From NCBI RefSeq assembly GCF_026151205.1, contig NC_087082.1, forward strand, positions 6,395,908-6,455,907: a stretch of 60,000 bases of DNA, in the 5' to 3' direction. The notes beneath the pieces are model-generated. The model was given only the letters and a program-made list of their open reading frames with translations. It made no database searches and was not told where the DNA came from. This document shows positions 3,739 to 59,000 of this stretch, in pieces. The position numbers and the translations under genes were made by a program. The stretch comes from Bolinopsis microptera. Its lineage: Eukaryota; Ctenophora; Tentaculata; Lobata; Bolinopsidae. Numbering within the stretch: the stretch's first letter is position 1; each line of letters starts with the position of its first letter.

Positions 3739-6134
3739 ATGTTGAAACGAGAAGAGTCGAGAGCAAGCTACATCCAGCTGGGTGGGCATGATGATCAGGG
3801 AAAAGTGAAAATGTGGAGCAAACTGACTAGGGGGTTTGCAGTTAAAGCAGGAGGAGAGCGGTAAATGTGTATGTTTGTTAGTATTAGAGCTTTAGAGTAT
3901 TGTGCCAGTGCCATATTGTGTGGATCCTTGAAGCCCAACTTCTTTGTAATAAAAAACATGTTCTAAACTCAAGCTTAATCTCAAAAGAGTGCGGTACCTC
4001 ACATGGAACTGAGTTTCACGACTGGTAGCAGTAGGCACTTGCAGGTAGTCGGTCATATCATACTCATAGTCATTATACGGTAATATACTGATCCTTCAGT
4101 AGGGTATTCAGTCCGGAAAGGAAAAGCAGCTCCGTCACAAAGTGGACTGACGAGGATTTCCAGGTAGCGTTCAGGGTGCTGGACCGGGACGAGGACGGGA
4201 CCATATCCAGAGAGGAAATAGAGGGGTTACTGGAGTCCCTGGGACAGCAGGCTACGATAGAGGAGATAGACCTGCTTGTTGGGGAGGTGAGTGGGAAAAT
4301 GAGGTGCACGTGCTGATCTGTTGGGGAAATGAGGTGCACGTGCTGATCTGTTGGGGAAATGAGGTGCACGTGCTGATCTGTTGGGGACCACGTTATGCCC
4401 ATATAAGGAGATAGGTTCGTCAAGAACTCGACTCTGCAGTCCCGCCCGTTGTTTAAAAAGTTAAGAGAGGGATCAGAGGCACTTGAAATTATAAAATTTG
4501 ATAACAAGTGTTAAACTAGAATTATTGTATAGCTTTCTTCATTAATTACACAGTTTAGTGTGCTCAAATCCTCCTTTCACACCATAGGAGGAGTTTCGTA
4601 TTGCGAGTTCCGAGGGGCACCATTGGTTTTGGAAGGTTGTATAGTTTTTTAAAGTAAAAAAAGTGTTCAACTTCAGTTTTTAACTCTAGATATAAATCAC
4701 AGATAACTAAAGGATGTTTATGTTTCAGATAATTAACGTAAGACTCCAAACTAAACAATGTTTATATTTCAGATAGATGTGGACGGTGACGGTACTAAAA
4801 ACTAAAGAATGTTTATATTTCAGATAGATGTGGACGGTGACGGTACTACAAACTAAAGGATGTTTATATTTCAGATAGATGTGGACGGTGACGGTACTAC
4901 AAACTTACAAACTAAAGGATGTTTATATTTCAGATAGATGTGGACGGTGATGGTACTACAAACTAAAGGATGTTTATATTTCAGATAGATGTGGACGGTG
5001 ACGGTACTACAAACTAAAGGATGTTTATATTTCAGATAGATGTGGACGGTGACGGTACTACAAACTAAATAATGTTTATATTTTAGATAGATGTGGACGG
5101 TGACGGTACTACAAACTAAAGGATGTTTATATTTCAGATAGATGTGGACGGTGACGGTACTATTAGTTTGGATGAGTTTAAAACCATGATGGAGAGGTTG
5201 ATGGAGAGTAACGAGGAGGATGACAGAGAGCTGCTAGAGGACACTTTCAACGTGAGTAATAATGTTTGGGGAGGTTTCCAACACCAAAAAACTCTTTCCC
5301 AAAATAGAAATTACAGATAAAGTTGGGTTTTTTTGTTGTTGGTATTTTTGGGTTTCTAACGTAACAATATTTTTAATGAACAAACGTTCAAATTAATTGC
5401 ACATATAATTATATATATATTTATATGCATATACATAACTTGATAGTTAAAACATTCGCCGAAAGACCCATAATGCCTGAAGAAGTGACCTAGTGTAAGC
5501 AATACAAACACCAGATGACCAGTCAATTATTTGAAAGCAATAAGCATTCAGTAGGTGGGAATCCTACGTTCATTAGGTGGGAATCCTACATTCAGTAGGT
5601 GGGAATCCTACATTCAGTAGGTGGGAATCCTACGTTCAGTAGGTGGGAATCCTACATTCAGTATATTACACAAGTCATGGGCTCCAGTATGATTCCTAAT
5701 TAAATACGACTAGTTAGCACAGGATCCTCGAAACTTACACCTTTAATTCAATTTGTTATACTTATTTTGTCGCATCCTCCTCCTTGTAACCAAGATTTGT
5801 GTTAGTAACTGTTTCCATAGCAACCACGGTACAAGTCTTGTGTTATTATAACCGACGGTTGCGCCTATTTCCCGGGCCGCACCTTAACAGCTGCCATTGT
5901 CTCAGTTAAATATCATTGCTCAGTGCTGATATCTTTATTCCTTATCACCAGGATTTCGATGTGTCCGGAGATGGTCTGATAGGGGTTGAAGATCTACTAC
6001 ATGTGTACAGAAAGCTGGGTGATGACGAGATCACTATAGAGGAGGTAGAGCAGATGATAGTAGACGCTACAGGAACTCCTAAGAGGAAGAAGGCTACTTT
6101 TGAAGAGTTTAAAGCCGTGTTGAAGGAATATTGA
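3739..6134 (+). CDS. EF-hand calcium-binding protein, calmodulin-like, four exons, 201 aa
   Basis: Exons 3739-3860, 4100-4286, 5138-5251 and 5952-6134 join in phase (2, 0, 0) with GT donors and AG acceptors and end at TGA. Exon 1 starts MLKREESRASYIQLGG and gives a basic, non-EF N-terminal extension of about 60 residues together with the start of exon 2. Three canonical calcium loops follow: DRDEDGTISREE (about residue 72), DVDGDGTISLDE (about 105) and DVSGDGLIGVED (about 143), all with D/D/D-x-I/L-E spacing. The fourth loop (DATGTPKRKKAT) lacks the acidic ligands and is probably inactive. The exon 2-3 junction reads LLVGE|IDVDGDGT, the normal helix-loop transition. Length and four-hand layout place it in the calmodulin/troponin C/calmodulin-like group; the exact subfamily is unclear. 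Two of its three introns carry junction-linked tandem repeats. Exon 1 is the least certain part, but its phase fits exactly. Confidence 0.85.
4281..4387 (+). repeat. 30-bp minisatellite at the donor of EF-hand exon 2
   Basis: Three copies of a unit containing GAAATGAGGTGCACGTGCTG start directly at the exon 2 donor. Each later copy opens with TTGGGGA, matching the last exon bases, but has lost the GTGAGT donor. Confidence 0.75.
4749..5164 (+). repeat. 51-bp tandem repeat carrying the acceptor and first codons of EF-hand exon 3
   Basis: Eight copies of GGATGTTTATATTTCAG followed by ATAGATGTGGACGGTGACGG. The last copy is the true exon 3 start; the seven before it reproduce the branch-side sequence, the AG acceptor and the first eight codons (IDVDGDGT), then run into ACAAAC-TAA, an in-frame stop. 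One copy has TTTTAG instead of TTTCAG. Confidence 0.92.
5545..5663 (+). repeat. 22-bp minisatellite in the last EF-hand intron
   Basis: Five copies of TTCAGTAGGTGGGAATCCTA with one or two substitutions. The unit contains AGGTGGGA and is not derived from an exon. Confidence 0.85.
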
Positions 6135-6184
6135 GAGAGTTTAACGCCGTGTATTGAGACTTTTAATTTGTGAGACAGCGTCGT

Positions 6185-20153: not shown

Positions 20154-20250
20154 AAAATTTAGAAAAAGATTAAATCAGAGATTTGTTTGAGTTTTAATTT
20201 TAGGCGCAACGTCTTAATCAAAATATCAAATGAAAGAAAAGATCAAAGAT

Positions 20251-28525: not shown

Positions 28526-28540
28526 CTCTAATTATAGTGT

Positions 28541-35008: not shown

Positions 35009-38000
35009 GTGAGAGCCTTTCTCTTTCTTTATTCCTAGTTTCTGTTTCTTTATTTCTAGTTAACAATTAACAGCTAATAGAGTGAAAATAGATATTATCA
35101 TAATTTTACGACGATCCAGTAGTCACTTGATAATGTTTACATAAGGTGAAGCCTCGCTATGTTGTGATATTTGCGTGCCGTTTAATCCGTGGGAGTACTC
35201 TTTTGTACTACAAAACTACAAGATACTAACAATAACGATTAATAATTAAATATCATAGACAGCAATATAAATGTGGCAGTACTGTTAAACCGTATATCAG
35301 TGGTCGCACATCCTCAGACAGACTATAATGGTCTGACTTATAACACGTGTTTTCAGTGGGAGTGCCTCTGTTCAGAGTGGGCAGTATAACACCAACCAAA
35401 GGTAGCAGAGTTGGAGGCAGTCGCGTCACCATCAGCGGACAAGGTTAGAGATTATCATTTCCACGTCTATCTGATTTTCAGCTACATCTATGAAATAGTC
35501 AAAATAGTTTTTTTTTTTCGGTTTTTATGCTTTCTAAAAATCACACTCTGTAGGGTTCAGTACGAACCAGTTCGGGTATGATGACCCCTCCCTGGGGAAC
35601 AAGGTAACATTCTACCACAAAGACGAGACCTACCCGGCCGTCCAGTGTCATGTCCAGACTTACTACACTTCCTCTACCAGAATCGTCTGTGATTTAGCGT
35701 AAGTTACACTATAGTCAGTAACCAATAGTAACCAACAGTAACCATAGTAACCAATGTGACTAACTAACGTGGTTAGTCACGTGATCACTGATAACATTTG
35801 AATACAGGATCCCAATATTGATCCTGTTCGAAGGTTTTCTCGGCTTGGCAGTTAGCCAAGTGTCAAGTTGGACAAGTGTCAAGTTGGACAAGTATCCCAA
35901 GTTGGACAAGTGCCAAATTGGACATGTGCCCCAAGTTGGACAAGTGTCCCAAGTGTTAATGAGTCATATTAACACTTTTATGAATTTTCTTAATGCCAAG
36001 AATATCTGAGAAACTTGAATCATTTCAATAAACAATCACCTCAACTGTTCGGGTACCCAAATATTAAAGTTAAAATATGATAATATGATTATCGACGGAG
36101 AATTAACACTTGCATCAATTGCCTTCTTGTCAAGCCAGGATGCCTTATTGTCTAGCCAGGATGAACTCAGAAACTTGAATCATTTCTGCTGTTAAACTTA
36201 TTAAAACCCGCCTAATCGTTTAACAAAGCAACAAGGTGCCCTTATTGAAGTTTGGAGTACAATTATTGATAAATATTTTAGAGGAATGCACCTAATTGTT
36301 CACACATCTGCCGGTATTTATTGTTGGTATTTTATATTTTAATATTTACCGGGTTGTTTTTGATTTAGGCCAAAACATTACCTTCGGAAGCGGAAATTTG
36401 TCATAGGTGGTTGCTAAATCGTATTCGTGAGTTTAGAATGAAATTTTAATGGCAGAGATTAAATACCCAAATAAAAAGTCAAAAACATTTCATGTGTAAC
36501 CGGAGCAAACAATTAATAAAATCTTGAACGATTGTAGCTATTTTGTCTCAAATCACATAGGCAGAGGAGACTACGTTAAGCTTACACTTGGAAGACGAAA
36601 TAACTGATTTGTCATCCAATCGGGCTTGATAAATCCAGAAAATATGATACAAATGTGGTTAAACTCGTTTAATCAATTATCATCAGAAGCGAACTATTCG
36701 TTGTTTAAAACAACATTATAAATGTAAAACATTTTGTATATACCATTAAAGAGTCGAACTACATAGGTGAATAGGTAGGTAACTATTGAATGCTGGTCCA
36801 CACACTTATATAGAAAGCAGCGAGGGACTTTTCTTTCTTAATTTGTGTTCACTAACGCGGCACTCATAAAAACAGGCACTCATAAAAACAGGCACTCAAT
36901 AACACTGCACTCAATAACACGGCACTCAGTAACACGGCACTCAATAACACGGCACTCGATAACACGACACTCAATAACACGGCACTCAGTAACACTGCAC
37001 TCAATAACACGGCACTCAATAACACGGCACTCAATAACACGGCACTCTATAACAAGGCACTCAATAACACGGCACTCAATAACACAGCGGCACTCATAAA
37101 AACAGGCACTCATAAAAACAGGCACTCAATAACACTACACTCAATAACACTACACTCAATAACACGGCACTCAGTAACACGGCACTCAATAACACGGCAC
37201 TCGATAACACGGCACTCAATAACACGGCACTCAGTAACACTGCACTCAATAACACGGCACTCGATAACACGGCACTCAATAACACGGCACTCTATAACAA
37301 GGCACTCAATAACACGGCACTCAATAACACGGCACTCAATAACACAGCACTCGATAACACGGCACTCAATAACACGGCACTCTATAACACGGCACTCGAT
37401 AACACATCACTCGATAACACGGCACTCGATAACACGGCACTCAATAACACGGCACTCAATAACACGGCACTCAATAACACGGCACTCAATAACACAGCAC
37501 TCATAAAAACAGGCACTCAATAACACGGCACCCTCCCAGGAAGCCAGACGTGTACTGGAAAGACTATCTTGAGTACCGTATGAGGATCTCAGTGGACGGT
37601 ACCTGGATGGATAGCACTGGTACTAACATCTACTGTGGAGGAGCCTGTACATACTACGTGAGTTTTACTAAGATATTTGGTGTTTAAGTTCTTTAGTTTT
37701 AGTTCTTTAGTTTTAGTTTTTTAGTTTTAGTTCTACAGTAACCTCCTTTCCTTTCTCCTAAAAATATTTTAAAAAGAAAAAATGTGTAGCTTAATATCAC
37801 TTAATTCCTTCCGATAAGGTGATATTTGGTTGATCAATTTTAACCATTTACATTCCTACGTAAAAACATGGAAAAGTTGTATACCTTAGTCGGTAATATT
37901 ATGGGGGGTCTAATTTGGTCCTTTTCGGGCCAAAGAACCATGTTTATAACAGTCCATATTTTTAACACCCATAATTTCCCCCCCCCCCCCCCCCCCCCCC

Positions 38001-41000
38001 ATAATATTACCGACTAAGGTAACCATTGTTTCATTTCTCTTGACTTACCTCTCCCACTCCCCCCCACCCCCCATAATATTACCGACTAAGGTAACCATTG
38101 TTTCATTTCTCTTGACTTACCTCCCCCCCCCCCCCATAATATTACCGACTAAGGTAACATTGTTTAATTTCTCCTGACTTACCCCCCTCCTCCCCCAGTT
38201 CCACAAAGACAACTCCCCCTACATATCCTCCATCACTACAAGACACGTGGCAGCCGGCTCCGTCCTGACCATGACCGGCAGAATGTGGACTGATAACTTC
38301 GAGCCGAGTAACGAGGTGTCGAGTGGTAGTGACTACATTAAGAGGGTGTACCTGAACGCGTTTACTTGCGATACTAGTGACGACAGTGGCAACTCGTGAG
38401 TGGGGGTTACCTTTTTGGAACGACCTTTTCTATTTAGATACCGAATAGCTTTAAACTGTCAACTTCTCTCATTCTAAGTTCGGTTATACAATTTAAGTAA
38501 TATATTATGCATATCATTAGGTTTTAATTTTTATTAATATCAGTACTGAGAACACTTCACTGAATAGCCATTGTTTGGTTTAATGTAGCACTTTTACTCG
38601 TTATTGTCACACAAAAGTAAGTATTACGTATATTCCCAGGTACGGAACAGATCTTGTTAAGGATGGTAACGGTGATGACACCAGTACAGGTAGTCTCATG
38701 TGCAAATCAGAGAGTCCAGGTGCCACCAGCTACCGGCCCTCCTTCCTCCACTCTAAATGGGGCAGGTAATGGTAACCTAGTAACCTAGTAACCTAGTAAC
38801 CTAGTAACCTAGTAACCTAGTAACCTAGTAACCTAGTAACCTAGTAACCTAGTAACCTAGTAACCAGCTACCGGCCCTCCTTCCTCCACTCTAAATGGGG
38901 CAGGTAATGGTAACCTAGTAACCTAGTAACGTAGTAACCTAGTAACCTAGTAACCTAGTAACCTAGTAACCTAGTAACCTAGTAACCTAGTAACCTAGTA
39001 ACCAGCTACCGGCCCTCCTTCCTCCACTCTAAATGGGGCAGGTAATGGTAACCTAGTAACGTAGTAACCTAATAACCTAGTAACCTAGTAACCTAGTAAC
39101 CTAGTAACCTAGTAACCTAGTAACCTAGTAACCTAGTAACCAGCTACCGGCCCTCCTTCCTCCACTCTAAATGGGGCAGGTAATGGTAACCTAGTAACCT
39201 AGTAACGTAGTAACCTAGTAACCTAGTAACCTAGTAACCTAGTAACCTAATAACCTAGTAACCTAGTAACCAGCTACCGGCCCTCCTTCCTCCACTCTAA
39301 ATGGGGCAGGTAATGGATACTGGAAATCTTTAAGATCTTTAAGTTTGATATAATCTGACTATTAGTTTTCCATTAGTGAACCAAAATATACTTGAAAATT
39401 ATGAGACAATTTTTTCAAGTGCTTCTCTTCCATTATCAGATCCGAAGTACGAAATAATGTGAACAGAGTTGATGCTTACATGCAGAAATATGCTTTTCAG
39501 ACTTACAACGGTATGTAAAATCCGGATTGGGGTATTGTTTATGAGTCGCATGGCTGCAATGTATTCTTGTGTAAATTTGTATTGATCCCGTTTGATGCGA
39601 CAAGGATTCCTTCCCTCATAAGAGTATTTTTCCTTGTCGCATCAAACGGGATCAATACAAATTTACACAAGAATATATTACAACGGTATGTGTTGGTGAG
39701 ATTCGTAAAATCATAATTAATCTAGTGAAGGTCCAAATCACGAATGTCATATCGTGACATTTATTATACGACGTGTCCATGGAAACTCACTAAATAAAGA
39801 CAAGTTGCTGCCATAATTTTAATGTATGATTGATTTTCTGTAAGCTAGAGCGCGTTTGTAAGTCATGTTTCTCATCATAAGTATATCAACTTATCAATGA
39901 CGAGTTAACTTTCCGACTGCACACAAATCATTCATCACTAACGAATCTAAAGATGATCTAAACCAATTAGATTCTAGATCTAAGTCGTATTACTTTTATT
40001 AATGCTTTTCAAACAAAGTTACAACGAATTCTTCATGTCGTGCATCCTGGGTTTGGACAGGATATGCCCGCTTAAAATATTTCCATCACGTTATACATTA
40101 CATAATTCTCAATAAATGTAATAGATTTGAAGTGTTGTAATTAGTTTAAAACTCTCAGAAATACCCATTTTGAGCAAGATGAATCCAATGAGCCGTATTG
40201 TCCCGTAAAACCTGAAGTAATTTATCAATATTATAAAACCTAAACACGCTATAAGTGTGATAACCTTATTTTCACATCTACTTCAGTGTTGAAGAGTGTG
40301 AGCCCAAGTGAGGGCAGTACTAGCGGAGGAACGAAAATAACAATCACCAGTGAACACGTGGTCGGACCTGTCTCTAACATTGCTGCGGAAGTCGGAGGTA
40401 ATCTTGCTACTTCATTTTCACATTCAAGACAGGAAAGAAAAAATGGTGTATAGCTGTGTTTATAATCCTACACAATTTGAGATTACTGGTTATAAACATT
40501 GCTGAGTAGCCGTATAACGAATAATACCACCCCCAGGTGATGACTGTAAGGTTGAGTCCTTCACATCAGACCAGATAGTGTGCTCCACACCTGCAAAACA
40601 GGACAAAACCGTCTACCCTGGAAACAGGTCTGTTAATTTACCTAACTTTTCTTTATAAAAACCCTGGAAACAGGTCTGCTAATTTACCTAACTTTTATTT
40701 ATCATTTGTTTATAAAAACGCTGGTTATGGTTTAGTCAGAATAAAAACCGTTTGTCACAAGTAAAACCTACAAAATATGGTGATGGAAGGTCTGTTAACA
40801 TGACATCAGTTCTGTATTCTCACAACATTAGTTACTGTAGAAAAAATAAAATGGCCAATAAATAAGTAATAAATGGTAGTTTTAAAATGTACTGTTTAGA
40901 TATAGTCTTCTGGTCGGTGCCCGCCTCAAACCATGCAGTGCATCCATTGACTATTCCATATCAGTATATCACTATGACCTTGCAGTTAAAGAAAAATAGA

Positions 41001-44000
41001 ATGGTAGGTTCATCAGAAAATCTATATAAAGGTATCACAGACCCCCTCCCCCCCCCCGTCACTACCTCCAAACCTCATCCACTTCTACCTGAGTTGTGAG
41101 ATAATAGACTCGCTTAGTCACATACGTCACACATACGTCACATTGTTCCTGTGACGCAACCCCCTTTCACATTATTTCGGAATCTGAAAGGGGGTTGCAA
41201 GCCCCCTCCCCCTCCCGTCAGCCCCAAACCTCATCCATTACGAACCACTTCGCAAATGCAATGAGTTGTGCGATGATAGACTTGCTTAGTCACATACGTC
41301 ACACGCTAAGTCACAAACGTCACACGCTAAGTCCTTACTCCTTACGTCACAGTTCACTGTTAAGCCACCGTGGTTAAGGAGTTGGGAATGGTTCCTCCTT
41401 TGATGTGCAAACTGTTAGACAAATTAGATCACTGTTTTAGCATCACATACATATTAGCATCACATACAGATTACAGAATAGCATCACAGATCCGGGACTC
41501 TACGGCGTGAGACTTTAACCCTAACCCTAACCCTTACCCTAACCCTTACCCTAACCCTAACCCTAACCCTAACCCTAAACCTAACCCTAACCCTAAACCT
41601 AACCCTAATCCTAATCCTAACCCTAACCCTAACCCTAACCCTAACCCTAACCCTAACCCTAACCCTAACCCTAACCCTAACCCTAATCCTAACCCTAACC
41701 CTAACCCTAACCGGAACCCTAACCCTAACCCGTTAGTTAATGCAACTCTTCAGCTTTTCAGGAGTGCATCCACTCCTGTATAGTACATAGTATAGCTATA
41801 ATGTTTTGAACACGAAGGGAAACACACAACGTAAGGCTCGAAATCATTAGAGCCTGTAAAAACATTTAATTTTAAGATAAGCACTCTATCAAGTAAAATT
41901 CATATTATATAATCATCATAGTTTATTAAATCAAACGTAAAATAGTATCTTATATTTGATCCTTCGAACAGCTGTTGAGCAATGAAACGCAAACATAATC
42001 TTAGCAAAATGAGTATAGCTGTATTACAGCTTTACAGGGGCTGGTAATAACAATAAGCTAATAAGCAACTGAATCGAAAGTGAAATATAGCTTATCCCAG
42101 GGGCGTGACTGTGGAGTACTGGGCAAAGGAGAGCAACAAATCAACAAGTGATGCGCGGGGGCTCGACGTAGATCTGATCAGAGAGTTCAAACAGGACGCT
42201 GATAACTTCCTGTTTGAGAAATTACACATGGATTCCAGACCAGATTCCTTGAAAACGTGAGTAACATGGTTAGGTTATTCAAAAGTTTTGATGGGCATTT
42301 GGACACCACAAATAGGAGGAATTCTTTCTTGTATGAAATTAAACATCCCTGAACCTGAGTGACAAAATGTATTTTTTTTAGTATAACCGGTGATAACACG
42401 GATGAGCCGTACTACGTCCGAGCCAAGTTCTTCCTCAACATCCAAGAAACAGATATGTACGGCTTCCACATGATCTCTGATCACAGTGGTAAACTGTATG
42501 TCAGCACAGATGATGACCCTGCTAACGCTGTAAGTTACTTATCAGCAAGCTCTTCCTTTATTACCTACTGAATCACTGGCTGTACCGTTATATAAGCTTT
42601 GTAGCTTTATGCCTGATGGATATTGATAAAACTAATACACGAGGGCCGGAGAGACCGGGAGAATCATAGTTTTTTATTTAATACTTTTCATATTTTACAT
42701 AAATTATCATAAAACTAGAACCATTCTAAAATGGAAGTGCCATGAGAAGGTGGTGTTCGTGAGAAGTGTGATTGCTTGCGGAGATGTAATGTATACTATG
42801 TAATGTATAATATTAGGTGATAAGATAGTGGTAGAAATAAGAAGGTAATGGTACGATAGAAGAAATGTAGAACATAGAGATAAGGATCTTGATAAAACTG
42901 ATACAAGAGAGTAAGAATGCTAGTTCCTCTGCATGACTATCCTTCATCACAGGTACTGCTAGCAGAGTGTGCAAATGCACAAAACAACTGGAACCTAGTA
43001 ACATAGTAACCTAGTAACCTAGTAACTTAGTAACCTAGTAACCTAGTAACCTAGTAACCTAGTAACATAGTAACCTAGTAACCTAGTAACCTAGTAACCT
43101 AGTAACCTAGTAACTATCCTTCATCACAGGTACTGCTAGCAGAGTGTGCAAATGCACAAAACAACTGGAACCTAGTAACCTAGTAACCTAGTAACCTAGT
43201 AACCTAGTAACCTAGTAACCAAGTAACCTAGTAAACTAGTAACCTAGTAACCTAGTAACCTAGTAACCTAGTAACCTAGTAACCTAGTAACCAAGTAACC
43301 TAGTAAACTAGTAACCTAGTAACCTAGTAACCTAGTAACCTAGTAACCTAGTAACTATCCTTCATCACAGGTACTGCTAGCAGAGTGTACAAATGCACAA
43401 AACAACTGGAACCTAGTAACCTAGTAACCTATTAACCTATTAACCTATTAACCTAGTAAACTAGTAACATAGTATCCTAGTAACCTAGTAACTTAGTAAC
43501 CTAGTAACCTAGTAACTATCCTTCATCACAGGTACTGCTAGCAGAGTGTACAAATGCACAAAACAACTGGAACACCCGGCAAACAGACGTCAACATAACC
43601 CTGGAAGCTGGTAAAATTTACTACGTAGAATTTGTTGGGGTTATGTGGAACTTTGGTCAGGACTTTGGGGTGGGAATGACGAAGAAGAACACCCCTTATC
43701 AGACATATGATGTGGATATCAGCAAGAAGGAATACCCGTACTGGTACTGGAAACAGACCTACAGTGATGAGATTCAGGTAAGGGGTCTAGTTACTATAGC
43801 AATACTGTTGTTACTACAATAACACTCTGGTTACTATAGCAACACTATAACAGTGATGAGATTCAGGTAAGGGTCGCCCGTTTAGTTCAGAGAGGATGAT
43901 TATAGATCATCCTATGTATATGCTTATCTACCCCCCACCCCCCCCCCCCCCCCCCCCTAATGTGAAAAGGTAAAAATATGGTCGGATAGTTCATCTAACC

Positions 44001-47000
44001 GAATAACTGCAGGTGATAAACCTGGGAGAGCTAATCACAAAACCGGAGACTGGATTCAAGCTGAAGATAGGGGAGAGAGAAACCTCAGAACTCTACGCCT
44101 CCTCTACTGCTGCACAGATATCTGCTGCTATCATCGGTAAGGGAACATGAAGATTGAAGCTAATTTGGGTTTAGAAATAAGGTCCAGTCCTTCTAAATTT
44201 ATAAATTTAGACATATCAGACATAAAAGACTGATATGCAAATTCTGGTAGATTTTCCCAACTTCTAAACCACCGCCCAGATACTGCGGTATACAAGTGTC
44301 CGACACTAGACTCAGCAGACAGCTGGTACAGCGTTGACTTTGAGAACGGGGATATGAGCTACACGGGTGGCTGGGCTCGCAACTACATTGAGCCTTACTG
44401 TGGCCGATGGTGTGTTCAAAGATACATATTATTTCTTGATTATGTCCAAAGATACATATTATTTCTTGATTATGTCCAAAGATACATATTATTTCTTGAT
44501 TATGTCCATTGTACAAAGATACATATTATTTCTTGATTATGTTCAAAGATACATATTATTTCTTGATTATGTGCAGATGATTTTAATTTTTATTTTGAGT
44601 ATTAATTGTGGATGAACCTATTAATTTCACTCTAATAACTAATAGTAACTCCTTACCTCAGGGTTGCTGTGAACAGTTGGGCTATTTTCCATGTGAAGTA
44701 CGAGAAGCAGGTCTACGAGTGGGACCTCTCTAAGGGATACAAACATGTATGTTAGTGTATGTTATTGTAGGTTAATGTATGTTATTCAAGATCAGCTCCA
44801 TGTTGTATGTTATTGTATGTTTATGTATGTTAATGTATGTTATTCAAGATCAGCTCCTTACTTCGGTCTTTTCAATGTTTGAGTTTCAAGGCGGTTCCCA
44901 AAACTAGACTCTGCTATCTGCATATTATACAATTCTTAAAAGTCCTTCGCGTCGTTTTTTAGTTCTTACTTCGTTATAACTTCCCTAACTTGATCAGTTA
45001 CAGTTTAATAAACGCATGTTTAAATAACATCAAACACATGCCCCTTCATAAACAAATCTGTTTATTTCAGCTTTGTTTTGGTCTGATGACCAAACAGCCG
45101 CGTGTTACCCTCTACTATGAGCTGGACTATGAGGACAGTAACTTTAACTGGAAGAGACAAGGTTTCTGGAGAGGTAGCAGCCAGGAAGAAACACCTGAGT
45201 AAGTTCTGAAATCACCATGACAACATTTCTAAATCAGTAATTTGATTTGGCAAAACTTCTATAAATAGTTAGGAGATCACAAACTGGTTTAGTAATACAA
45301 TTTTTTTAAATAAATTTATAAATAGTTAGGAGCTCCCAAGCGGCAAGCAGGTTAGTACAGTAAACCACAATATTCCACGACTCATGTTCCCATTCCCCAA
45401 AACTCCGCGGTAAATCGGGGTTTTACTGTATGTAGTTCTCTGCAGCTTCTGTTTTTGATTCATTAAACATACTTCAGACTGCAAGACAATGATGGAACAT
45501 GGAAATATAACTGTATAGACTTTGAAAAGAGGGTAAAGGAGATTGATGCCGATCTTTGGGATTCCAGAATAGGCAATCGCAAGTAAGTTAGAACATGAAG
45601 CCTTTTCAAAGAGTCCACTGTCCAAGCTAGGATCTTACAGCAAGTTTCTGGTTCTGAGTAAATTTTCCTTCTTACCGTACTTTTATAGCTAGTAAAAATC
45701 TGTCGGAGAAGTTCTGATTCTTTCTCAAAAACAGTAAAATTAACCTTACTTTCCTTACACCACCACTGAATCCAGACATTCCAAATTAACCTTACTCCGA
45801 ATTATAGATGGAAAATAAGGAGGGTATTGCTTGGCGTTGATCAGGGGAAATACGGAAGTTATTACACCGACTCGCTGAGAATCGTCCGAACCCCAGTAAC
45901 AGGTGTGTGGGTTTAAGAGCTGCGGATGATGTGCTGCTAATATAAATTCAAATGGATTGGATGGATCTAACCGTATAAATTCCATCGGCCCATTCAATCT
46001 GGAGAGTTTATATGGTGGCGCATCATCCAACTCCATAATAATCTATGTTATTTTAATACGTTATACACGACCCATACCAGATGGAAGGTAAGAAGAGTGG
46101 AACTAGGCTGGGAACAAGAGAACGGTTTGAAGAGGAACCGGGGAGCATGTAAGAAGTGGATGGAGACCATGCAGGATGGGGCCTGTATTTACATTGATGC
46201 TATCAGGATCCTACGGTCTGACGTCACAGGTCCTTATTCGCACGTGTCTTCACTGCCTTATATGGTAGTGTTACTATGGTAACACTACCATGTAAGGTAA
46301 TATAATAATAGGTCCATATTCACGTGTCTTCTCTATAGACTCTCCCCTAAGATTATGTGTCATTAGTTTCAAATCTTCTTCGTTGAAATAAAAAACCTGA
46401 TTTATTCGTGCCTTGATTAATAGTTTCAATTAATTGTTGATAAACGCTCCTAATTTCGATAGGAACCCGCTCTGGCAGAACGAAGCGATTAGTAAGAGAG
46501 GGTCAGTATAATCTGATTAAGTCGTGTTATTGAGTCTCATTTGATGATTCTTTCAAGAAAGTTTGTGATCATTCTGAATAGGTTCAGTGATGACAATGTT
46601 TTATTTAGTTTCATAAGAACATTGTCATCACTGTGTCTATTCAGAAAAAATCAGCAATTTTCTTGAAGTAATCCTGGTTGAAGTTGTGCATGATTGTCTT
46701 CTTCACCAATCGGTATCTGGCCGATGAATTCTCCTAGATTTTAACTTCTTGGTTTACTCTTCACACAATGATCAATCTTTGATTTACGCTCATGATCTTG
46801 ATTTAAAAATCTGTTTTACGCCCACAGTGTCTTATCTTCGTTTTATAACCTTTCAACTCCGAAAAAACGTTGGTTAGCAACGAAATCTCTTGAAAACTGA
46901 TTTACAGATTTCAGTAAGCCGCTCCCTCTCGTAGAAAAGGTTTTAGTTTCCTGTAGCGATTTGTTGATAAAAACATGTTCCTTTTAACAATGAATTTCGT

Positions 47001-50000
47001 TATTAAGTTTCCTCGCAAAGCATAGACCATTTTGCGCCTAAACATTATCTACTGGCAAGAATCGTGACTTTCTTGGTTGCTTCAGCGTCCGAGTATTGAC
47101 GCGCTGTCTCCATATAACTAGAAGTCTATCAGCCATAAGTCCTCCCATTCTCCAGCGAAATGGGACAAGAATCATGACGGCCTTTTAACTGTTCTATAAT
47201 CTATTTACTCTTTCATATCACTTCTCTTACTTTGTTTCACGGTTTCAACTTTGAATGATTGTTGTATGACCGAGTTGTGAGCAGTATTCTCACTTTCTGC
47301 GGGCTAAGTTAAACAGAAACCATTGTTGTACTTGGTATGCAGGAAGGTATGTATTGGAGCATGGCACGAGGAGGGAAGAGTTCAGGGTACTCTTACACAC
47401 CTGAACTGAAACTGATTCTTTATCTATTATACATCTTTCTTGATTGAATTCTGTTATTTATTGTATAATCTCGCTCTAAACAATGTTGCGACGATTGTTT
47501 GGACCATCGACGCAAATGTTTGATTCAAAGCATCAGATTTGTTGGAAGATGTCTCTTGTCAAAAAAACAAACGTGATACAATTGATTTTTATTTTTATTT
47601 TTTCTCGAAAAACAATTTCTGTTTTCTTGTGAACCACCCCCTACCAGGATTGAGGCTCAAAACCTCAATAATAATATAACCTCTCAAAACCTCTAACACA
47701 AACAATCTCAGAGATTGCCCGAGTGAAAGGTTTCGCTCTAGACGGTCAGGGACTGTTGGAAGCAGCTACCGTAAAGGTAACTGATTACTGTGCTGACGGC
47801 GCTGATTGTACCACTGAGAGGACTGATGAAGCTACGGAGAGGAAGTTAGTTGCCAGCTGATATTTAATTTAATTTAATTTAATTAGTTTCATTTATCATT
47901 CATTATTCATTTAATTGGTCTTTATATTGCTTAAAATAAGTGTTATTTATAAAATGGCGTGTTTATTTATCTGTGAAAGTTCGTTAGTATTTGGATTGAA
48001 GTACATTTTGTGAATGTAGGAGTGCATGCCTTATACCATCTCAACTTTTTAACACTTTTATTTCAAAATTTAAAAAAATCATGATTTAAGGTGGGAGATA
48101 AAGATGAAGACTTACGAATGTGCTTACAACTTTCCGCTAATAGGGATAGCTGGCAAATCAGAGACAGTAGTTAAGAAAGATGTAAGTACAGTTTGAGTTT
48201 CAGGCTCAACGTTATATCTTTATATGTTCAATCAGTTTCCTTTTCATAAAGTCATTAGCACTTTCCATCATATTTTAATTTGTATTGACATTCCAAAAAA
48301 CTTTTTAGACAGAGTCCACGTACACTGTGGGCGGAAAAACAGTTAATATTTTGAGAGAAGCAGCCATTACTCCAGATTTGCAAGGTCAGTGATTCTTTAC
48401 GGGTTAAAGAGGTGAATTTGTTTACAAACATGTATCACCTCTTCAACCCGTCTAACAGGGGCTTAATATTAAAGTAAACAAATGTGTTTCAACTCCTTGT
48501 GAGTATCCACATCTATTGTTAGTTTTATTTTATGTGTATGCTCAGTATGAATAATGATACTTCTCCTTGATCAGCTATAAACAAGACCTGAATTATCCCC
48601 ATTTTACAGGTACATTTGACGTTACCATCGATGGGACCACCCATACCAACATTGATGTCCAAATACACCCTCAAGCCTTCCTAGACATAATTAATAGAAA
48701 TGGGGACTACTCCCAGGCCCATAAATGGGGCTCCTGTTATGGTATGAGAATTTGATATCATGTTACAGGGTACGGTCCAGAATTAAGTACCCAAAACCAG
48801 TCACCCGGAGTGCGAAAACTAAGGCTTAATCTAAAGGCCTATGTTATCTAAGTTATTTTTAATGGGTACTTAATTTTGGACCGCTCTGTTTACTAAGTTA
48901 AGTTTTGTTTACATTCGACTGTTCGATTACAGGAACGTTTGATTTGACTATTGACGGACACACATATGAAAAGATAGATGTGCACAGTTCTAGTAGTGCT
49001 TTGTTGGAAATAGTAAGGCAAGGTGGTGAATACTACAGAATCCACAAATGGGGGAATTGTTACGGTAAGGGATCCCCATCGTCTGAACGCCTGCTGAGCA
49101 CATCATCATCAGGGCGCACTTTTATACACACCTGCTAAGCCGTTTTAAGCTGGCGAAATTCAATACACTTACCACTTGAATATCTCTTGTGAAACACAAG
49201 GTTTTATCTTGTGACTTAATTCATTCACAAGCCTGACAGCGCTAGATGCAGCTTGAATTCACTCAATAGATAAACTTCTTTAGACCCTCTGCTGTGTAAA
49301 GAAGGACTGTTCAATGTTCATCTGGAAGGTGCTTCATCTAGTGCTACAGCAATATTAAATATTATTAAAAATAAACATAAAATACCTGCTGAGCAGTTTT
49401 AAGCTGGGGAGGGTTTTCTTGCGCTGGATAGCAAAAGAGTATCAGGGAATATGCTGTTTTTACAGGGTCGCTGATCCAGGGGTTTCAAGCACTTTCTTTA
49501 AAATCTTTCATTATTTTGGAACTGAATAAATAATTTATGCAGCTGATAGGATATTATTTAGCAAGAGCATGTAAATACTAATAGTATGTATCATGCTACC
49601 ATTCCGTTAGACCGAATAAACAATCCATTAAAAGTACTCTTAACCCCCCAGAGAGACACTGGCGGCTGGAGAGGAAGTACTCGGGACATCACGGCTGGCA
49701 CAGTGTGGACAGCACCAATGTGGTGGGGGTTGGCGAGGTTCAAACGTTTGTTATCTTCAAAGATAACGAGCGGGGAGGTCTGGTCATGACTCCGTTATAT
49801 GGGGACTGGCTCAGAACCGCGAACTCTAAACCTCAGGTGAGCTTCACACTTTCACAGCTGTTATACATTTAGATGTTTTGAAACAGTGCATGTTCAATAT
49901 ATTATAATGAAACCAAAACCATCGTGGTACCACAAGATAACGCGTGATAATTCAAAATAACGCGTGATAATTCAAAATAACGCGTGATAATTCAAAATAA

Positions 50001-53000
50001 CGCGTGATAATTACCTCTTCACCAACTGTTCAGTAAAGAGACCACCTGACTATCTCTTTTGTAGGTATCAGTGAAGGTGAACGGTGTGAGTGCGTTCTGT
50101 AACGGAACGTGCGACTACACAACAAGTGACGCTAACACTCCAACAGTCGCGTCCCTCACTCCAACCAGTGGTAGGTAACCTAGCAACCAGTGGTTTGTGA
50201 TATTATTATATAGTTATATTACTACAACTATTGCTATAAAGCTATATAGTAAACAGTTTTTATTAGAACGGAGTTTAAAACTTACTATTAACTAACTACC
50301 AGTATCAGTTTTTATTTTGTGATTATGCTCTTTTGCATCCAAATACAAATACACTTCTAAAATACAGTAAAATATGGAAGTAGTTTATAATTTTACCTTT
50401 GCATGAGCTTTAAAATACAGTAAAATATGGAAGTAGTTTACAATTTTACCTTACAGGAGCTTTAAAATACAGTAAAATATGGAAGTAGTTTACAATTTTA
50501 CCTTCGCAGGAGCTCGAGGAGCATCTGTCACAATAACGGGCACCGGGTTCGGGACCACTAATAGTGCGGTGACAGTGACACTGGGCGGTGCTGCTCAGAC
50601 TGTGTCACAGGTGACGGATACTGCTGTCACTATCACCCTCACTGATGGTGTCGCTAAACCTCACCCTGCAGCGGATATTGTGGTTAATGTAGCAGGTAAG
50701 CTGTTGATCACTCCCTCTTTTTGTGCATTTATATTTTAGTAATCATTTACCACAATTAGTACAGTTTTCCAGGCATCACCAGAGGGTTGCCACAACCCAG
50801 AGGCAGGCATATCCAGGCTATCCTCTTGTGGACCACCCAGCCTCTCTCTAGCTTATCACGTTGTTAATGTTTTCTCAGAACATGATATTGTACATGTTAT
50901 ACATAATTAATTAACATAATATATACGAATACCTCCTCTCTACAGGTAAAGGAAATGCTAAGGTAGCAGACAGTGTTGCATTTACTTATAGTGGCTCAGT
51001 GTCTGGAATCACCCCCGCATCTGGCGGCATTGGTGGAGGTAAGCAATAAGATCTTACTTTGTGTGTTACAATAAATACCATCATTATTGTAGTACTTCAT
51101 AAGTTTATAAATAGTACTTTATAACAGTACTAGAAGCATTTTATTGTACTAGTAGTACTTTACAGTAGTTACCTGTCAGAACGCTGAAATCTAATGTAAC
51201 ACGTAATCTAACTTCTCGCTGTTTACACCTCACTTTACCTCACTTTACCTTCAGGTACTCTCGTCACGATATCCGGTTCTGGATTTGATCCTGAGTACGC
51301 CGGTGTTACTTTCAGTGGAACTACTGGCAGGGTGAGATACTTGTAATTCCAGTGGAAACTAATAATTAATTCCAGTAGAATGTGCAGATTAGGTGTTATT
51401 TTCAGTGTTGCACAGTTCGGTAAAAATACGTGGTATACAACACTGGTTGCTTTTTCAAGTCGGTTTGATCATAGTTGCAAAAAAATTCAATTTCATATCA
51501 TTATGATCTGACAATTCATAATTATAATGAATATTTAAAGATGTAACTCAGTGAAATTACCAATCTTTTTACAGCTGGAGAGTGCGACATATACTCAAAT
51601 AAAAGTATTTGCTCCTGCCGGAACTGAGGGAGCAGCAACCATTGCTATTACTGGTAGGTAACCTAGCAACCATTGCTATCACTGGTAGGTAACCTAGCAA
51701 CCATTGCTATCACTGGTAGGTAACCTAGCAACCATTGCTATCACTGGTAGGTAACCTAGCAACCATTGCTATCACTGGTAGGTAACCTAGCAACCATTGC
51801 TATCACTGGTAGGTAACCTAGCAACCATTGCTATCACTGGTAGATAACCTAGCAACCATTGCTATCACTGGTAGGTAACCTAGCAACCATTGCTATCACT
51901 GGTAGGTAACCTAGCAACTATTGCTATCACTGGCATGGTTATGGTAACCTAGCAACCATTACTATCACTGGTAGCTAACATATATCCAGGTCAACAATAT
52001 CCCCACATTCGCTTTAAAATTTACCCGCTACTTTTTAGTATAATACATAACCTAATACAACCTAACGAAATTTGTTACCTCACTCGAAGAACAATTAACT
52101 TTAAAATGTCAATTTATACTTCAACATCAGGTGGGACAGGTTTTGTTGCTCCGGACTCTGCCTCCCTAGCGTACTCCTACACAACTACTAACGTTCCTAC
52201 TGTTTCCCAGATCAGTCCTGTTTCCGGATCTGTTGGTCAGTGCTCTCTTCATGATTATCCCTGTATATCATTGAGCCATTTAATGAATTTGTATCATTCC
52301 CCATGATTAATAACTTTTGTTAAGTTTATAACTCCTTTCGGTGCACCTTTCACTGCAGCTTAGGTGGGCGCAACCCCAAAAGATAAGATTCACGATTAAC
52401 CCAATATATCATTGAGCCATTTAATGAGTTTATAACATTATTTTAAGTTCCCATGGTTAATTATTATCATCTTCCAACCGGATAGTATCCAACTATCAGT
52501 ATTTCAATCATGAAACTAATAAACAGCGAACCCATCATTTGTTAATTATTTTCAGTTGGGAACACCAAGATGACCATCACTGGGACAAACCTTGGTGACA
52601 TCAAAGAAGCTAAAATTGGAGATGTGGCATGTGCTAAGGTAAATAACTAATAAGACATATCATGTACAATATATTATGATGGCAAGTAGGAAAGTTATAC
52701 AAAATGATATCAACGATTAAGTTTACTGAAATACTGTTTGTTTTGTAGGACGCAGATGAGACTTCTACAGAAACAAAGTACTACTGTATCGCTGGAGGGA
52801 ACTCACCAGGGAAACATCTGGTTTCCTTGGAAACAAATGCGGGAGAATTCGCTCAGTCTGTTGTAGAATTCAACTACATCCTCATGGTAGGGCTCCGATA
52901 CTCAGAAATTGGCAATGCTCCAGAAATAGTTGTTTTTTTTCAAATCAGAGCTTCTTCTCTAAAGATCTGTATCTTCTCAAACATTGTTTCGGAAATATTT

Positions 53001-56000
53001 CTAGATCTTGTCTAAAGAAACATTTTGATGAGTTTTATTCTTTCAACTAAGTGATATCTCACGACCTGCACTATCCCCAGATTCAACACGTGAGCCCTCT
53101 ACAAGGATCGGTAATGGGAGGCACAGAAGTCACCATAACCGGCAATGGGTTCGGGACTGACAAGGACATGTTGAACGTTGAGTTCGGGGAGTTTGAGTGT
53201 AAGGTGAAGAGTGTGACCGACACGGAGATAATGTGCGACACGGAGCCAGCAATGAATGTCGATCAGCTCTGGAGTGATTACAGTGAGTAGGAGCTGTTGA
53301 TTTGTCTGTTCGTCTGACTTCTTCTTCTTTGTACATATAATGTGTTATTGTGGCTAGAAATGTTTCAGTGAAAAAAATCAAACGCTAACTTAGAATATGT
53401 CGTGTTTTTTTGGGTAAATTTCTATTGATCCCGTTTGATGCGACAAGGAAAAGGCTCTTATCAGGAAAGGAATAAGAATATGTAAGTAGAATATGCCAAT
53501 TAAAGAATAATTTGAATAAAACCAACATTCCACGAATTCCCCTTTCAGCTGGATCCCCCTCATGTGTGGAATCCAAACCCACGGGTTACGTGAAAACAGC
53601 CCAAGATGTCCACAACATGTACCGGAGAAGACACTCGAGCACCCCTGATATCTGTTTCTCTGACTCAGTAGCTAAAAGTGCTGCCTCCTGGGCTGACCAC
53701 CTCGCTCAGAACAACGTCTTCAAGTCTAGTTCTACTAGGTACTGTTAAGAGAGGGGCTTTCTGCTAGTATTGTTGAATTTTAACCATTGTAAGTCATGCG
53801 ATCACCATTGATTATTCCAATTTATAATATTATCTTAAATTCTTAACGTCAAGCAGAACCTAAAACTTTGTCAAATTTTATTAATTTGTAAATTAGAAAT
53901 TCTACCTTCAGTAACCGAGAGAACCGAGGAGAGAATCTGATGATATTCGAACACTGGGACCTGAAGAGTGACGAAGCGTACATGAGGGATGCTATATCCG
54001 CCTGGTACGCCGAGGGCAGCAATTTCAACCCTGAAGACCCGTCAAATACAATGAGATACGCCCAGGTAGGTAACCTAGCAACCATTTCTATTACTGGTAG
54101 GTAACCTAGCAACCATTGCTATTACTGGTGGGTCTCAATCTGCCCCACGTTTGTTCACATTTTAAATGAATCGTTCCATTACTTTGGGGATCAAAGCCTT
54201 TCTAAAAATTGAACAGACTTTCTCTTTGCCAACTCGTAATATGTATTTTATGTGTATAATGTGCACTGTCTCAGATGTTGTGGAAACTATCTGATCAAGT
54301 TGGGTGTGCCATCACTAAAAAGAGAGCATCGTCCACTGAGAAGTACAAGATCTACATAGTCTGCCACTATGCTCCCGCCGGGAACACTGAGGGGAAGTTT
54401 GGTGACTATGTCAAACAGTTCGGTAAGTCCCAGTCGACATAATACCTTCACCCGTACAAACCCTGATTTATTATGTCCCGATATACCGCGGAAAATCACG
54501 ATTTACCGTGACATTCAGTCTTTTACCTTTTATGTTAACAGTTTCGTGAGTCCCATCCAACATAATACTTTGTCTACTGTCATTGCTTTATAAGTATCCG
54601 GGATGAAATGTAACCACTGAATCGTTTATATCCAACTCGGTATTTTTGTTTACTTGGATTCTAACTGCATTCTCTGTGGTTGCTATGGGCCATCTAACTT
54701 CCAAGATTCGACTAATTGAAGATTATGCGAATATGCAGCATGAAATCAAGAAGGGAGGGTTGTTTCTCCAGTGACCAGATCACAACTTAATAAGTTTCTG
54801 GAGAGTTCCAGGGTCTCGTAGTTATCTGAATTAGTTTCAGTTCATTACAGCACCAAACTAAGTCTCATTACATCCATCAATTAGTGACAGGGACATAAGT
54901 AGCGGTTCTCCTACGTGAATGGTTGATTAAAACAGAATAACAGAATAATTGGCATCCATTTTGTTTTCCTGTAAATGAAATGCGACAACTAAATTTCATC
55001 AAAGACTTACCAAAGTACAAAAATTTAACAAAACTTGTCTAGAAGGTGCTGCAAGTTTCTTTTCTCTAGGATCAAATTCTCTCTATGATCAAATTCTAAC
55101 ATGGCCCCCTATCCGATTTAGTCCACAATATTTCGCGACCAAACTGAACCATGGGTAGAAAAAACATTAACCTTGTAACTGTGTTGCCTGCACAAGAGCA
55201 ACTGTAACTGCACAGTGCACATCCAATTTGAACAAACTGATCTGCACATATTGTAAGTTGTCTGTACACTAAACCTTTCTCCTCTAGACACAGAGCACCA
55301 CCGAGCAACATCAGCTCTACACATGACATTGTCATGGTAACACGTGACATTGTCATGGTAACACATGACATTGTCATGGTAACACGTGACATTGTCATTG
55401 TAACATGTGACATTGTCATGGTAACACGTGACATTGTCATGGTAATACCTTTCTCCTCCAGACACAGAGCACCACAGAGCAACATCAGCTCTACACATGA
55501 CATTGTCATGGTAACACGTGACATTGTCATGGTAACACGTGACATTGTCATGGTAACACGTGACATTGTCATGGTAACACGTGACATTGTCATGGTAACA
55601 CCTTTCTCCTCCAGACACAGAGCACCACAGAGCAACATCAGCCCTGTTCTCCGAAAGTGCAGCAGTTAACGTCTACCTCGACTCTCGCAAAGCTACCGTC
55701 ACCAAATCTGCACCATCCTCTGGTAAGATATTGGCTATTTCTTGATCTTTGTGCTTAAACCTGATCAATTGCAGTACAAATTGCTTGTTCACTGATTAGA
55801 ATATGAAGTCATTGTTGTACATGATTCGACACGAATTCTGTCTAAAAAGCTTCAAATTTAACATTTCTGTGTATTTCTGTATATTTATGATAACTGCTCC
55901 TGACTGTGCCCCTCTAATTTAACCCCCCCTCAGCTCCTGACTGTGTCCCTCTAATATAACCCCCCCCCTCAGCTCCTGACTGTGCCCCTCTAATATAACC

Positions 56001-59000
56001 CCCTCAGCTCCTGACTGTGCCCCTCTAATATAACCCCTTCCCCCCTCAGCTCCTGACTGTGCCCCTCTAATATACCCCCCTCTCAGCTCCTGACTGTGCC
56101 CCTCTAATTTAACCCCCTCCCCCTCAGCTCCTGACTGTGCCCCTCTAATATAACCCCTTCCCCCTCAGCTCCTGACTGTGCCCCTCTAATATACCCCCCT
56201 CTCAGCTCCTGACTGTGCCCCTCTAATTTAACCCCCTCCCCCTCAGCTCCTGACTGTGCCCCTCTAATATAACCCTCCCCCCTCAGCTCCTGACTGTGCC
56301 CCTCTAATATACCCCCCTCTCAGCTCCTGACTGTGCCCCTCTAATTTAACCCCCTCCCCCTCAGCTCCTGACTGTGCCCCTCTAATATAACCCTCCCCCC
56401 TCAGCTCCTGACTGTGCCCCTCTAATATAACCCCCCCCCCCTCAGCTCCTGACTGTGCCCCTCTAATATAACCCCCCTCAGCTCCTGACTGTGCCCCTCT
56501 AATTTAACCCCCCCTCAGCTCCTGACTGTGCCCCTCTAATATAACCCCCCCTCAGCTCCTGACTGTGCCCCTCTAATTTAACCCCCCCCCCCTCAGCTCC
56601 TGACTGTGCCCCTCTATCCGGTACTGTAAGCGGGTGTTCTGACTCTAATCCAGCTGCTGCTCAGGGCGACTTCTCGTGAGTAACACACCTCTTTACACAG
56701 CAGGGTGTCATAATTATGGGCGCGTAGACAATTTTGCGTAAAATTTTGGGAATTTTAGCTTACCCAAGCTTTTAGAAACGATTATTACTTGACTTCTGAG
56801 TGTCAGTTTCCTATGGAGTCTTGATCATTTAAGAAATAATCCTTCATACTACAGTTCAGTCTAAAAATGAAGTCCGAAAGAAGTTAAATTTTGTCGATAA
56901 TCACGACGAAAGAGAAAAATTTGGATTATTGGACTTGAAGCCTTCGGCTGCATCCCCTAAATTCCGGGATGCGTCCGCCTGACTATATTTTATTGCGTCA
57001 GTTAGAGGAGAAAGAGAGCTTTTATAAAATCTATAGTTTTCTATATGTTTCGCTATCGCCTGAAGAGCTGTGCACTTTAGTCTAAAGAATAATTTCAGAA
57101 AAAATTCACCGAAAAAAATTACACATAAAAACCCTTACTCCTTCGTAAATCTAACCAAGTATGGAATCGACCCTTTAAATAACGGCCTAAATTATGGGTT
57201 TTGAGGTACATCAACACAAAATTCTGAAATTAATAAAAATTTCAGACGATTATCTACAGACCAGTTTTTGAATTTTGTAATTTAGATATTCAGAAGTAAA
57301 GTTATGACCCGGTGCTGTATGTGTTACGTGATCTTTAACCTTGTGGTTCTTTGCTATACAACTATTTAAGAAATCACTTGCTAGAAAAGTTATTAGATTA
57401 CAAGTTATTAGATTGCAATTCTCGTATCCTGAGTCAGTTGTTTACTTTATAATCTCAATAATGTTTTAGTGATTTATATTATTATATCTATATTATGTAT
57501 ATATACGAGTCTTCTACAATATTGCATTTTGTGTGTGAGTTATAACCTTTGATAGATAATGATTAATGTATAATATGTAAGTAAACATTGGCTGGCACTT
57601 AAGGAAAGGTCAAAAAGTAAGCCCAAGAAATTTGTCATCTAGCCTTTTGCGATCAACAATAATATTGTACATCAAATGGATCAATATCCCGTCCAATCTC
57701 AAATTTAGTTTTATTCCTGAGATTTTGTCTCTTCTTTAACCGTTTTTCTTTTCTTTTTCTTTCAAGTCACGCTCATTGTTATCGCTTTCTATTTTATCTC
57801 TCTTACAAATAAGGTCTGGGTTGTCTCCATTGTCTCCAGGTATTAGAACGTAATCTTTAAATTTCATCTCAACACATTCTTCACACTTTTTAAGGAATTT
57901 TCCCAAAAACACGAGGTGTCTGCCTTTACCCATTTCCCGTGTAGTCTGGAGATCCAGGGGAACCTTCCTTCCGCACATAGTCGCACTGAAGTCAGAACGC
58001 TTTGGCATGACATCATTTGACTTTGGAAAGTCTTCAAAATATTCGTATATCCTTCCCAGCTTGAAGTATCTTGCATTGAATGTGATGTAAAACTTTTTTA
58101 ATCCAACGTGTATTTCGATGTTGTAGAATTGCAGAAAAGGAGGGTCATTGTTGTGGCAAAAAACAGCAGCGGCTTGGTTTCTAGAACATGGCACATGAGT
58201 TTCCGTCAGTATGGAGCAAGTGTCAGCAATTGAAATATTTTCGGTCGCGTTCAGCATCTGTGGGCCCAGGGTGGCATTTGTATGTTCAGTATCTTTGCCA
58301 AGGTTGGTATGTGCCTGCCCAGGATGGTGTGTGAGACTAGCTGCACGGTAACAGTGGTACCGTAGTGGACAACTCCAAATTTCCGAATTCCCCTCTCTAT
58401 CAGTATCATCCATTTTTCATTTTCTATCGCAACCTGATCGATTTCGTTTGCGCGAAGTCTCAACTTTAATGTTTCCTCATTCCGTCCCATCAATATGTCC
58501 CCAAAAGTAAGTTTTCTACTTTCAACACTTATGGAGGTTCTACGACCAGTTTTAAACCCGTGCAATTGACATAAAGCAATGGCGGTACGATCATTAAATT
58601 CGTCATCGCGTATGGGTCGATAATCGCTGCTGATCACCATGAAGGCACCTCGCTCGTCACGTTTCATCAAGTACATCATAAGTTGTGCTAGCTGTCTAGA
58701 AGACTTCTCCGACATGTCATTGTTGATCATAAATTCCTCCGTACAAATCATGGGATATCAGAGGAGTTCTTAAGGTATTCATGTCTCCGTGTGACTGTGA
58801 GACGTTGCTGGGAAGACTTCTTTGACAATTGCAGGACTCATCATATTGAGGAGAATATGTGAACTTAAACGTTTTTGGGTAATACATTTCGAGGGTATTA
58901 TACTTTCGCATACCACCCACAATATACCAATCACCAAGTCTTCCATCGTTCTCGTTATCCACCGCCGCTTTCCATCTGGACGGCTTCTCCCGCCTTTTAC

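Follow-up and report, generated by a model that had tools for sequence, protein, structure and literature searches.

Minisatellites across splice junctions in two genes of the ctenophore Bolinopsis microptera: a dense cluster best explained without a junction-targeted process

Introduction

According to the Rogers (1989) model, as relayed in the relevant part of Ma, Lan and Niu 2016 (PMC4974935), tandem duplication of an exonic segment containing AGGT supplies a new intron with its two splice sites, and the same part of that report describes a tandem duplication over an intron–exon boundary of the potato RdRp gene by which a new intron was formed. Likewise, internal tandem repeats at exon–intron boundaries are given for human segmental duplications in the pertinent part of PMC2812944, with 162 alignments and 27 intron modifications after manual inspection. 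Here, we analyse a stretch of 60,000 nucleotides from Bolinopsis microptera (the window; positions 6395908–6455907 of contig 11, in a genome of 264.65 Mb in 232 contigs) in which minisatellites cross or adjoin splice junctions of two genes, one EF-hand gene and one long gene of PKHD1L1 type. A preliminary description of the window had stated that no described system of this form was known; junction-crossing duplications and boundary minisatellites are, however, in print in the parts of the two reports cited above. The observation stands, and the density of such arrays in this locus is unusual, yet the cluster is best read without a junction-targeted process.

Patch-mediated repair of double-strand breaks leaves short direct duplications whose copies are in some cases separated by filler DNA, and the window arrays are alike in combining short direct duplications with filler; they may have arisen by such a repair route. 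Tandem arrays are also reportedly an intron source in human genes, to go by the title of Zhuo et al. 2007, cited as reference 62 in PMC2812944. Introner-like elements, which are dispersed near-identical introns with target-site duplications, offer a further comparison, against which the local exon sequence in the window units speaks. The potato case, in the part of the report concerned with it (PMC4974935), consists of a single duplication with a new intron, whereas many junctions are involved here, with up to 18 copies and no sign of a new intron in use. Both the human repeats, as given in the pertinent part of PMC2812944, and the window arrays are minisatellites (human units of ~30 bp), some of them at exon–intron boundaries; the human case, however, is variation between paralogues with transcript support, while ours is one locus known from DNA alone. 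As in the relayed Rogers model, the tandem duplications touch splice signals.

Results

Contiguous exon–intron units at splice junctions

The arrays consist of head-to-tail units of ~10–100+ bp with point differences between copies, as determined by Tandem Repeats Finder (TRF) and unit alignments, and thus fall under the definition of minisatellites. At nine of the ten junctions named in the preliminary description, the repeated segment is a tandem genomic duplication in which exon edge, splice site and intron are contiguous; exon 26 is a weak case (Table 1). Exon and intron bases are joined in the units as in the gene in the six arrays that were aligned, and the units at exon 11, the exon 14 donor and exon 27 are likewise contiguous over the junction as judged by BLAST. 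The copy numbers previously given for exon edge plus splice site were reproduced by pattern count at eight of the ten junctions. Three copies had been claimed for the exon 27 acceptor, where TRF does find three units but AG is kept in just two. Similarly, two copies had been claimed for the exon 26 donor, which shows no plain duplication; what stands is an insert, similar to the exon 30 unit, that terminates in a second copy of the final 8 exon bases. The ten exon 30 copies with GT comprise nine spaced 31 apart plus one at 51970. Arrays said to begin or stop at the splice sites of exons 6, 7, 16 and 17 are all present, with the TRF boundaries given in Table 1. In the arrays at exon 8, the exon 14 acceptor, the exon 14 donor and exon 38, another minisatellite lies between the junction copies (an octamer, an octamer, a 20-mer and a 21-mer, respectively), and from their letters these four filler-bearing arrays may be read as 24–57-nt duplications over the junction.

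This structure bears directly on RNA-templated amplification, in which cDNA or intron lariats are copied back at junctions, as had been suggested for this locus. The location of the arrays at splice sites is in its favour, but exon and intron follow one another in the units just as they do in the genome. Such units are present in neither template, since spliced cDNA has no intron part and lariats have no exon part, and this route is hardly credible. An assembly artefact would be another origin, as tandem arrays are generally prone to error in assemblies. Against it, the units differ by substitutions and filler lengths and the contigs are long (20.8 Mb for contig 11), and we judge it very unlikely.

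The exons are real, since chains of 3 (EF-hand gene), 6, 9, 5 and 15 exons (long gene) read as single open frames. The EF-hand chain is open through to its terminal stop, and those of the long gene cover 37539–40627 (6 exons, 237 codons), 42101–45902 (9 exons, 405 codons), 47712–49064 (5 exons, 187 codons) and 49652–56675 (15 exons, 643 codons). Exons within 34512–35698 come from gene-finder prediction alone, and the join from 45902 to 46081 is out of frame, another site being needed. All ten named junctions fall inside open chains, and the exon-proximal copy gives an open frame at each of them. The EF-hand protein matches Pfam EF-hand_7 (E 1.7e-23) and, in PDB, calmodulins, while the long gene has Pfam matches to TIG (E 4.8e-46 and 1.9e-10) and CAP (E 2.4e-12); its designation as PKHD1L1-type was taken over from the preliminary description, with which the TIG domains agree. 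No Pfam family was matched by a piece from the nine-exon stretch, no relative of a 356-aa piece of the long gene was found at E ≤ 0.001 in a protein search, and an Rfam search gave nothing at gathering scores. The idea that the exon edges were themselves born from arrays was rejected: the edges of EF exon 3 and of the TIG exons encode residues typical of these domains, as we read them against the family motifs.

The exon 30 unit is also present in two other introns of the long gene (BLAST), at exon 26 and behind the exon ending at 54065, the latter being an addition to the earlier list. Short template switching may account for this spread, and the likeness of the donors (GGTAGGT and GGTGGGT) would supply the microhomology. 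The top enriched hexamer in array units is GTAACC/GGTTAC, found in 16 of 124 arrays (window plus the genome sample introduced below) against 1.45 expected. Some of these arrays have a common origin, so they do not represent 16 independent events; the enrichment suggests that array birth has a sequence preference of its own.

Table 1. Arrays at splice junctions and the two genes that carry them (window coordinates)
Feature	Position	Strand	Evidence
EF exon 3 acceptor + 25 nt exon, 51-bp array, 8 copies, all with AG	4743..5162	+	TRF, pattern count
Exon 8 end (~40 nt) + donor + octamer GTAACCTA filler, 138-bp array, 5 copies	38725..39316	+	TRF, BLAST, pattern count
Exon 11 end (13 nt) + donor, 46-bp tandem duplication, 2 copies	40615..40702	+	TRF, BLAST, pattern count
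Exon 14 acceptor + ~40 nt exon, 4 copies, octamer filler between	42936..43573	+	TRF, BLAST, pattern count, unit alignment
Exon 14 donor edge, 24-nt segment in two identical copies, 20-bp × 3 array between	43761..43873	+	BLAST (100% over 24 nt), TRF (43786–43846)
Exon 26 donor, 27 nt like the exon 30 array unit (92.6%)	50166..50192	+	BLAST
Exon 27 acceptor, 52-bp array extending 5 nt into exon	50358..50514	+	TRF, pattern count
Exon 30 end (20 nt) + donor, 31-bp array, ~10 copies	51634..51979	+	TRF, BLAST, pattern count, unit alignment
Exon 30 unit twice, directly behind donor of exon ending 54065 (95% over 61 nt)	54065..54133	+	BLAST
Exon 38 acceptor + 28 nt exon, 3 copies, 21-bp array between	55273..55642	+	TRF, BLAST, pattern count, unit alignment
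Exon 39 acceptor + 20 nt exon, 41-bp array, 18 copies	55896..56616	+	TRF, pattern count, unit alignment
30-bp array, start 5 nt past EF exon 2 donor	4292..4387	+	TRF
15-bp array, end just upstream of exon 6 acceptor, 0 exon bases; outside counted introns	36849..37531	+	TRF
C-rich 63–72-bp array, end 1 nt upstream of exon 7	37983..38197	+	TRF
30-bp array, start 3 nt past exon 16 donor	44413..44572	+	TRF
58-bp array, start at exon 17 donor, 2 exon bases	44745..44880	+	TRF
EF-hand (calmodulin-like) gene, exons 4103–4286, 5138–5251, 5952–6134	4103..6134	+	Gene-finder model
PKHD1L1-type gene (TIG, CAP domains)	34512..56675	+	Open frames, Pfam, gene finder

Placement of the arrays in the window

Array placement was evaluated in 38 curated introns of the window, which had itself been selected for its striking look; with TRF cut-offs of ≥10 for period and ≥50 for score, these introns hold 22 arrays. 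The intron set includes 45902–46081 and omits the unjoined gaps 35698–37540 (with the array before exon 6), 46229–47712 and 49064–49652. Under the null, each array was collapsed to one unit within its intron, and this unit was placed uniformly over message-preserving positions. Junctions are crossed by at least 4 exon bases in 8 of the 22 arrays, against 4.4 expected (P = 0.038). The P value runs from 0.067 to 0.021 across TRF score cut-offs of 40 to 80, and if the unit is set by the best-scoring TRF row the count becomes 7/28 against 5.4 expected (P = 0.27). Thus, the excess of crossing in the window is at most mild and fragile to such choices.

A different picture is obtained when arrays that cross a junction or lie ≤10 nt from one are counted together, 15 of 22 against 6.0 expected (P < 2e-5; 0 of 50,000 simulations). 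The long gene by itself gives 13/19 against 5.5, and of the three arrays in the EF-hand gene one crosses and one abuts a junction. The excess persists for distances from 0 to 50 nt, being weakest at 0 (10 against 4.8, P = 0.007) and at 50 (16 against 10.7, P = 0.007). The earlier assertion that random minisatellites would not respect exon edges so often consequently holds in this locus for crossing and abutting arrays taken together, but crossing alone is near the null. Locally copied 20-mers are found at 8 of 76 junction sides versus 27% of intron-internal positions (counted before a few of the exon edges were shifted), and arrays cover 13% at the junction compared with 16–21% deeper in the intron, with no junction peak. 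The introns are short (median ~250 bp) and the arrays make up approximately a quarter of their length; in such short introns of an array-rich locus, a duplicated segment will often reach over the edge of an exon.

Replication slippage at AG–GT sites had been proposed as one possible cause. AGGT is found at 4 of the 10 crossing junctions and at 20 of the 66 others (P = 0.72), and in view of this lack of over-representation AGGT was rejected as a driver. The locus also departs from the Rogers model, as relayed in PMC4974935, in that the units are exon plus intron.

A sample from elsewhere in the genome

For comparison, two blocks picked by position, each from position 5,000,001 (contig 1, 200 kb; contig 2, 60 kb), were treated in the same way; together they represent 0.1% of the genome. 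The gene finder that predicted the exons had first been trained on the long gene and was then retrained with window and sample together; the upper length limits, which differed between counts, were 2,500 or 6,000 bp for introns and 700 or 1,200 bp for exons. When an exon score of at least 4 and an intron length below 2,500 bp are required, 80 introns with 29 arrays remain, of which one array crosses a junction against 1.5 expected, and one crosses or abuts against 2.6. When all predicted exons and introns <6,000 bp are used (153 introns, 81 arrays), the corresponding values are 2 against 3.1 and 4 against 4.8. A stricter exon set, which splits an intron holding the contig 1 case described below, gives 0/16 crossing against 1.1 expected. 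Masking of arrays cuts the score of exons with edges in arrays, three crossing exons of the window dropping below 4, and for this reason the count over all predicted exons is the fairer one. The excess of the window is recovered by the same pipeline with gene-finder exons (crossing 8/26 against 4.4; crossing or abutting 16/26 against 6.2), which shows that the pipeline is not blind to the effect. The arrays occupy 26% of intron length in the window and 5% in the sample (all predicted exons; 23–27% and 3–6% overall), an approximately fivefold difference in load.

The general process amplifying DNA at junctions that had been envisaged is therefore not borne out in these 260 kb on two other contigs. 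Still, the sample has one clear case on the minus strand of contig 1, where an array at block position 41039–41418 takes in the start of an exon at 41047 (an acceptor crossing), in a gene that we presume to be gelsolin-like from family motifs, and crossing arrays are accordingly not limited to the window.

These data can be set against the view that junctions are true hotspots of tandem duplication in some genes, e.g. through exon-edge breaks tied to transcription or to a composition step. The crossing-or-abutting excess, the involvement of both window genes and the gelsolin-like gene on another contig all speak for it. On the other hand, no excess is seen in the sample, where a 2.5-fold excess like that of the window would leave at most one such array with a probability of 0.011, AGGT is not over-represented, and a striking appearance was the ground on which the window was chosen; we hold true hotspots to be unlikely. 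Equally doubtful is a more elaborate version confined to a subset of genes, in which junctions would give birth to minisatellites, exon-edge repair or replication producing duplications that cross or end at the splice site, and short template switches would carry units between junctions via shared splice-site bases, copies of equal strength piling up while the exon-proximal one is used and the rest are cleared by nonsense decay.

Predicted consequences of the copied splice sites

Most copies score near the used site in the site model of the gene finder, with 5.2 at all five exon 8 donors and 7.1–9.9 for the 18 exon 39 acceptors, and some are weaker (3.6 versus 6.4 for two exon 30 copies). This likeness, together with the slightly greater uniformity of the exon part of the units, would favour a function for the repeated sites, be it regulated alternative splicing or redundancy. 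However, an in-frame stop within the added part would result from all 30 acceptor copies (five arrays) and from all 10 donor copies tested of 15 (four arrays), the copies at exon 26 and behind 54065 lying outside the test. Since every copy tested would add a stop, the copies are not useful alternative sites, which led to rejection of that candidate, and a function of the kind described is very improbable. Splicing errors onto the copies would be exposed to nonsense decay.

The same stops count against intron birth caught in the act, whether by duplication of an exon piece with AGGT or of pieces crossing the junction. A junction-crossing duplication did create a new intron in potato, in the part of PMC4974935 that treats it, and the gene finder calls some unit copies in the window mini-exons. 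Conversely, the units are not purely exonic, AGGT is confined to 4 of the 10 junctions, and the frame is open without any inner copy, each of those tested adding a stop; ongoing intron birth is in our estimation rather improbable.

Other repeats in and near the window

In an intron, an inverted repeat surrounds GTTACTATGGTAAC at 46256–46297 (91% over 34 nt), its inner 11-bp arms being perfect by eye, and the intron after exon 11 contains an interstitial telomere-like array of TAACCC (36 copies, 41516–41731). A retroelement of the long interspersed nuclear element type, presumably CR1-type by its domain make-up, occupies 16794–21060 on the minus strand, with a frame for endonuclease and reverse transcriptase (RVT_1, E 2.1e-28) and a second frame for a GDSL/SGNH esterase. 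It is followed on the plus strand by a 773-aa open frame (21506–23824) without match in a Pfam search, which we take by eye to be Penelope-type reverse transcriptase-like. A 9-bp AGTAACCAT array near the start of this frame (21154–21328) recurs at 25540–25599 and, in similar form, at 35717–35755. A repeat of ~90 bp at 10002–10091 has at least 39 further copies in the genome with 92–93% identity (40 candidates scored). Immediately beyond the window, a 21-bp array that carries a GTAAC-type motif (60714–60838, window coordinates) lies ahead of a 62-bp satellite at 60943–70000 (at least 9 kb and at least 146 copies), and the gene finder predicted no exons in the 10 kb downstream of the window. In the contig 2 block (5.0–5.06 Mb), a long tandem array at block position ~5490–7900 is open over ~2.3 kb on both strands and was called coding by the gene finder.

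Discussion

The explanation that we consider probable is one of ordinary minisatellites, generated in the short introns of an array-rich locus by tandem duplication that is not targeted, with fillers from template switching, and then filtered by selection. Segments of 20–160 bp would be duplicated in tandem at the DNA level, via break repair or replication slippage, at sites not chosen for being splice junctions, and in several of them template switching would have brought in filler from other minisatellites. Duplications within exons would be purged by selection, while a duplication spanning a junction would persist and expand because it spares both the message and the splice site next to the exon. 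The units are contiguous exon and intron, the frames are intact, copies of a junction unit lie in other introns, and the sample picked by position follows the null. How the breaks were repaired, what part selection played and whether the exon-proximal copy is the one actually spliced are matters of inference.

Several observations weigh against this explanation. It does not cover the tight hugging of junctions by array edges in the locus, apparent from the 15 of 22 arrays that cross or abut and from the persistence of this excess with gene-finder exons. The contrast with the sample (15/22 against 1/29; Fisher P = 7e-7) points to something special about the locus, and the small size of the sample and its predicted exons weaken the null result there. 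Moreover, within the units the exon-derived part varies less than the intron part (6/844 against 12/462 differences, five arrays pooled, P = 0.01), which simple neutrality does not predict. The contrast is reversed in the exon 14 array, and 2 of the 12 intron differences lie at the outer border of the exon 8 array; in the exon 39 array it is larger (1/360 in exon against 55/288 in intron), but consists mostly of changes in a C-run region.

For the study of such loci, the lesson is that striking clusters require a placement null that takes unit length and intron length into account. For the organism, production of the protein would require the exon-proximal site to be chosen among up to 18 sites of similar predicted strength in a row. 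The locus would thus be a natural test bed for splice-site choice at equal strength, and for whether repeats that cross junctions may seed introns.

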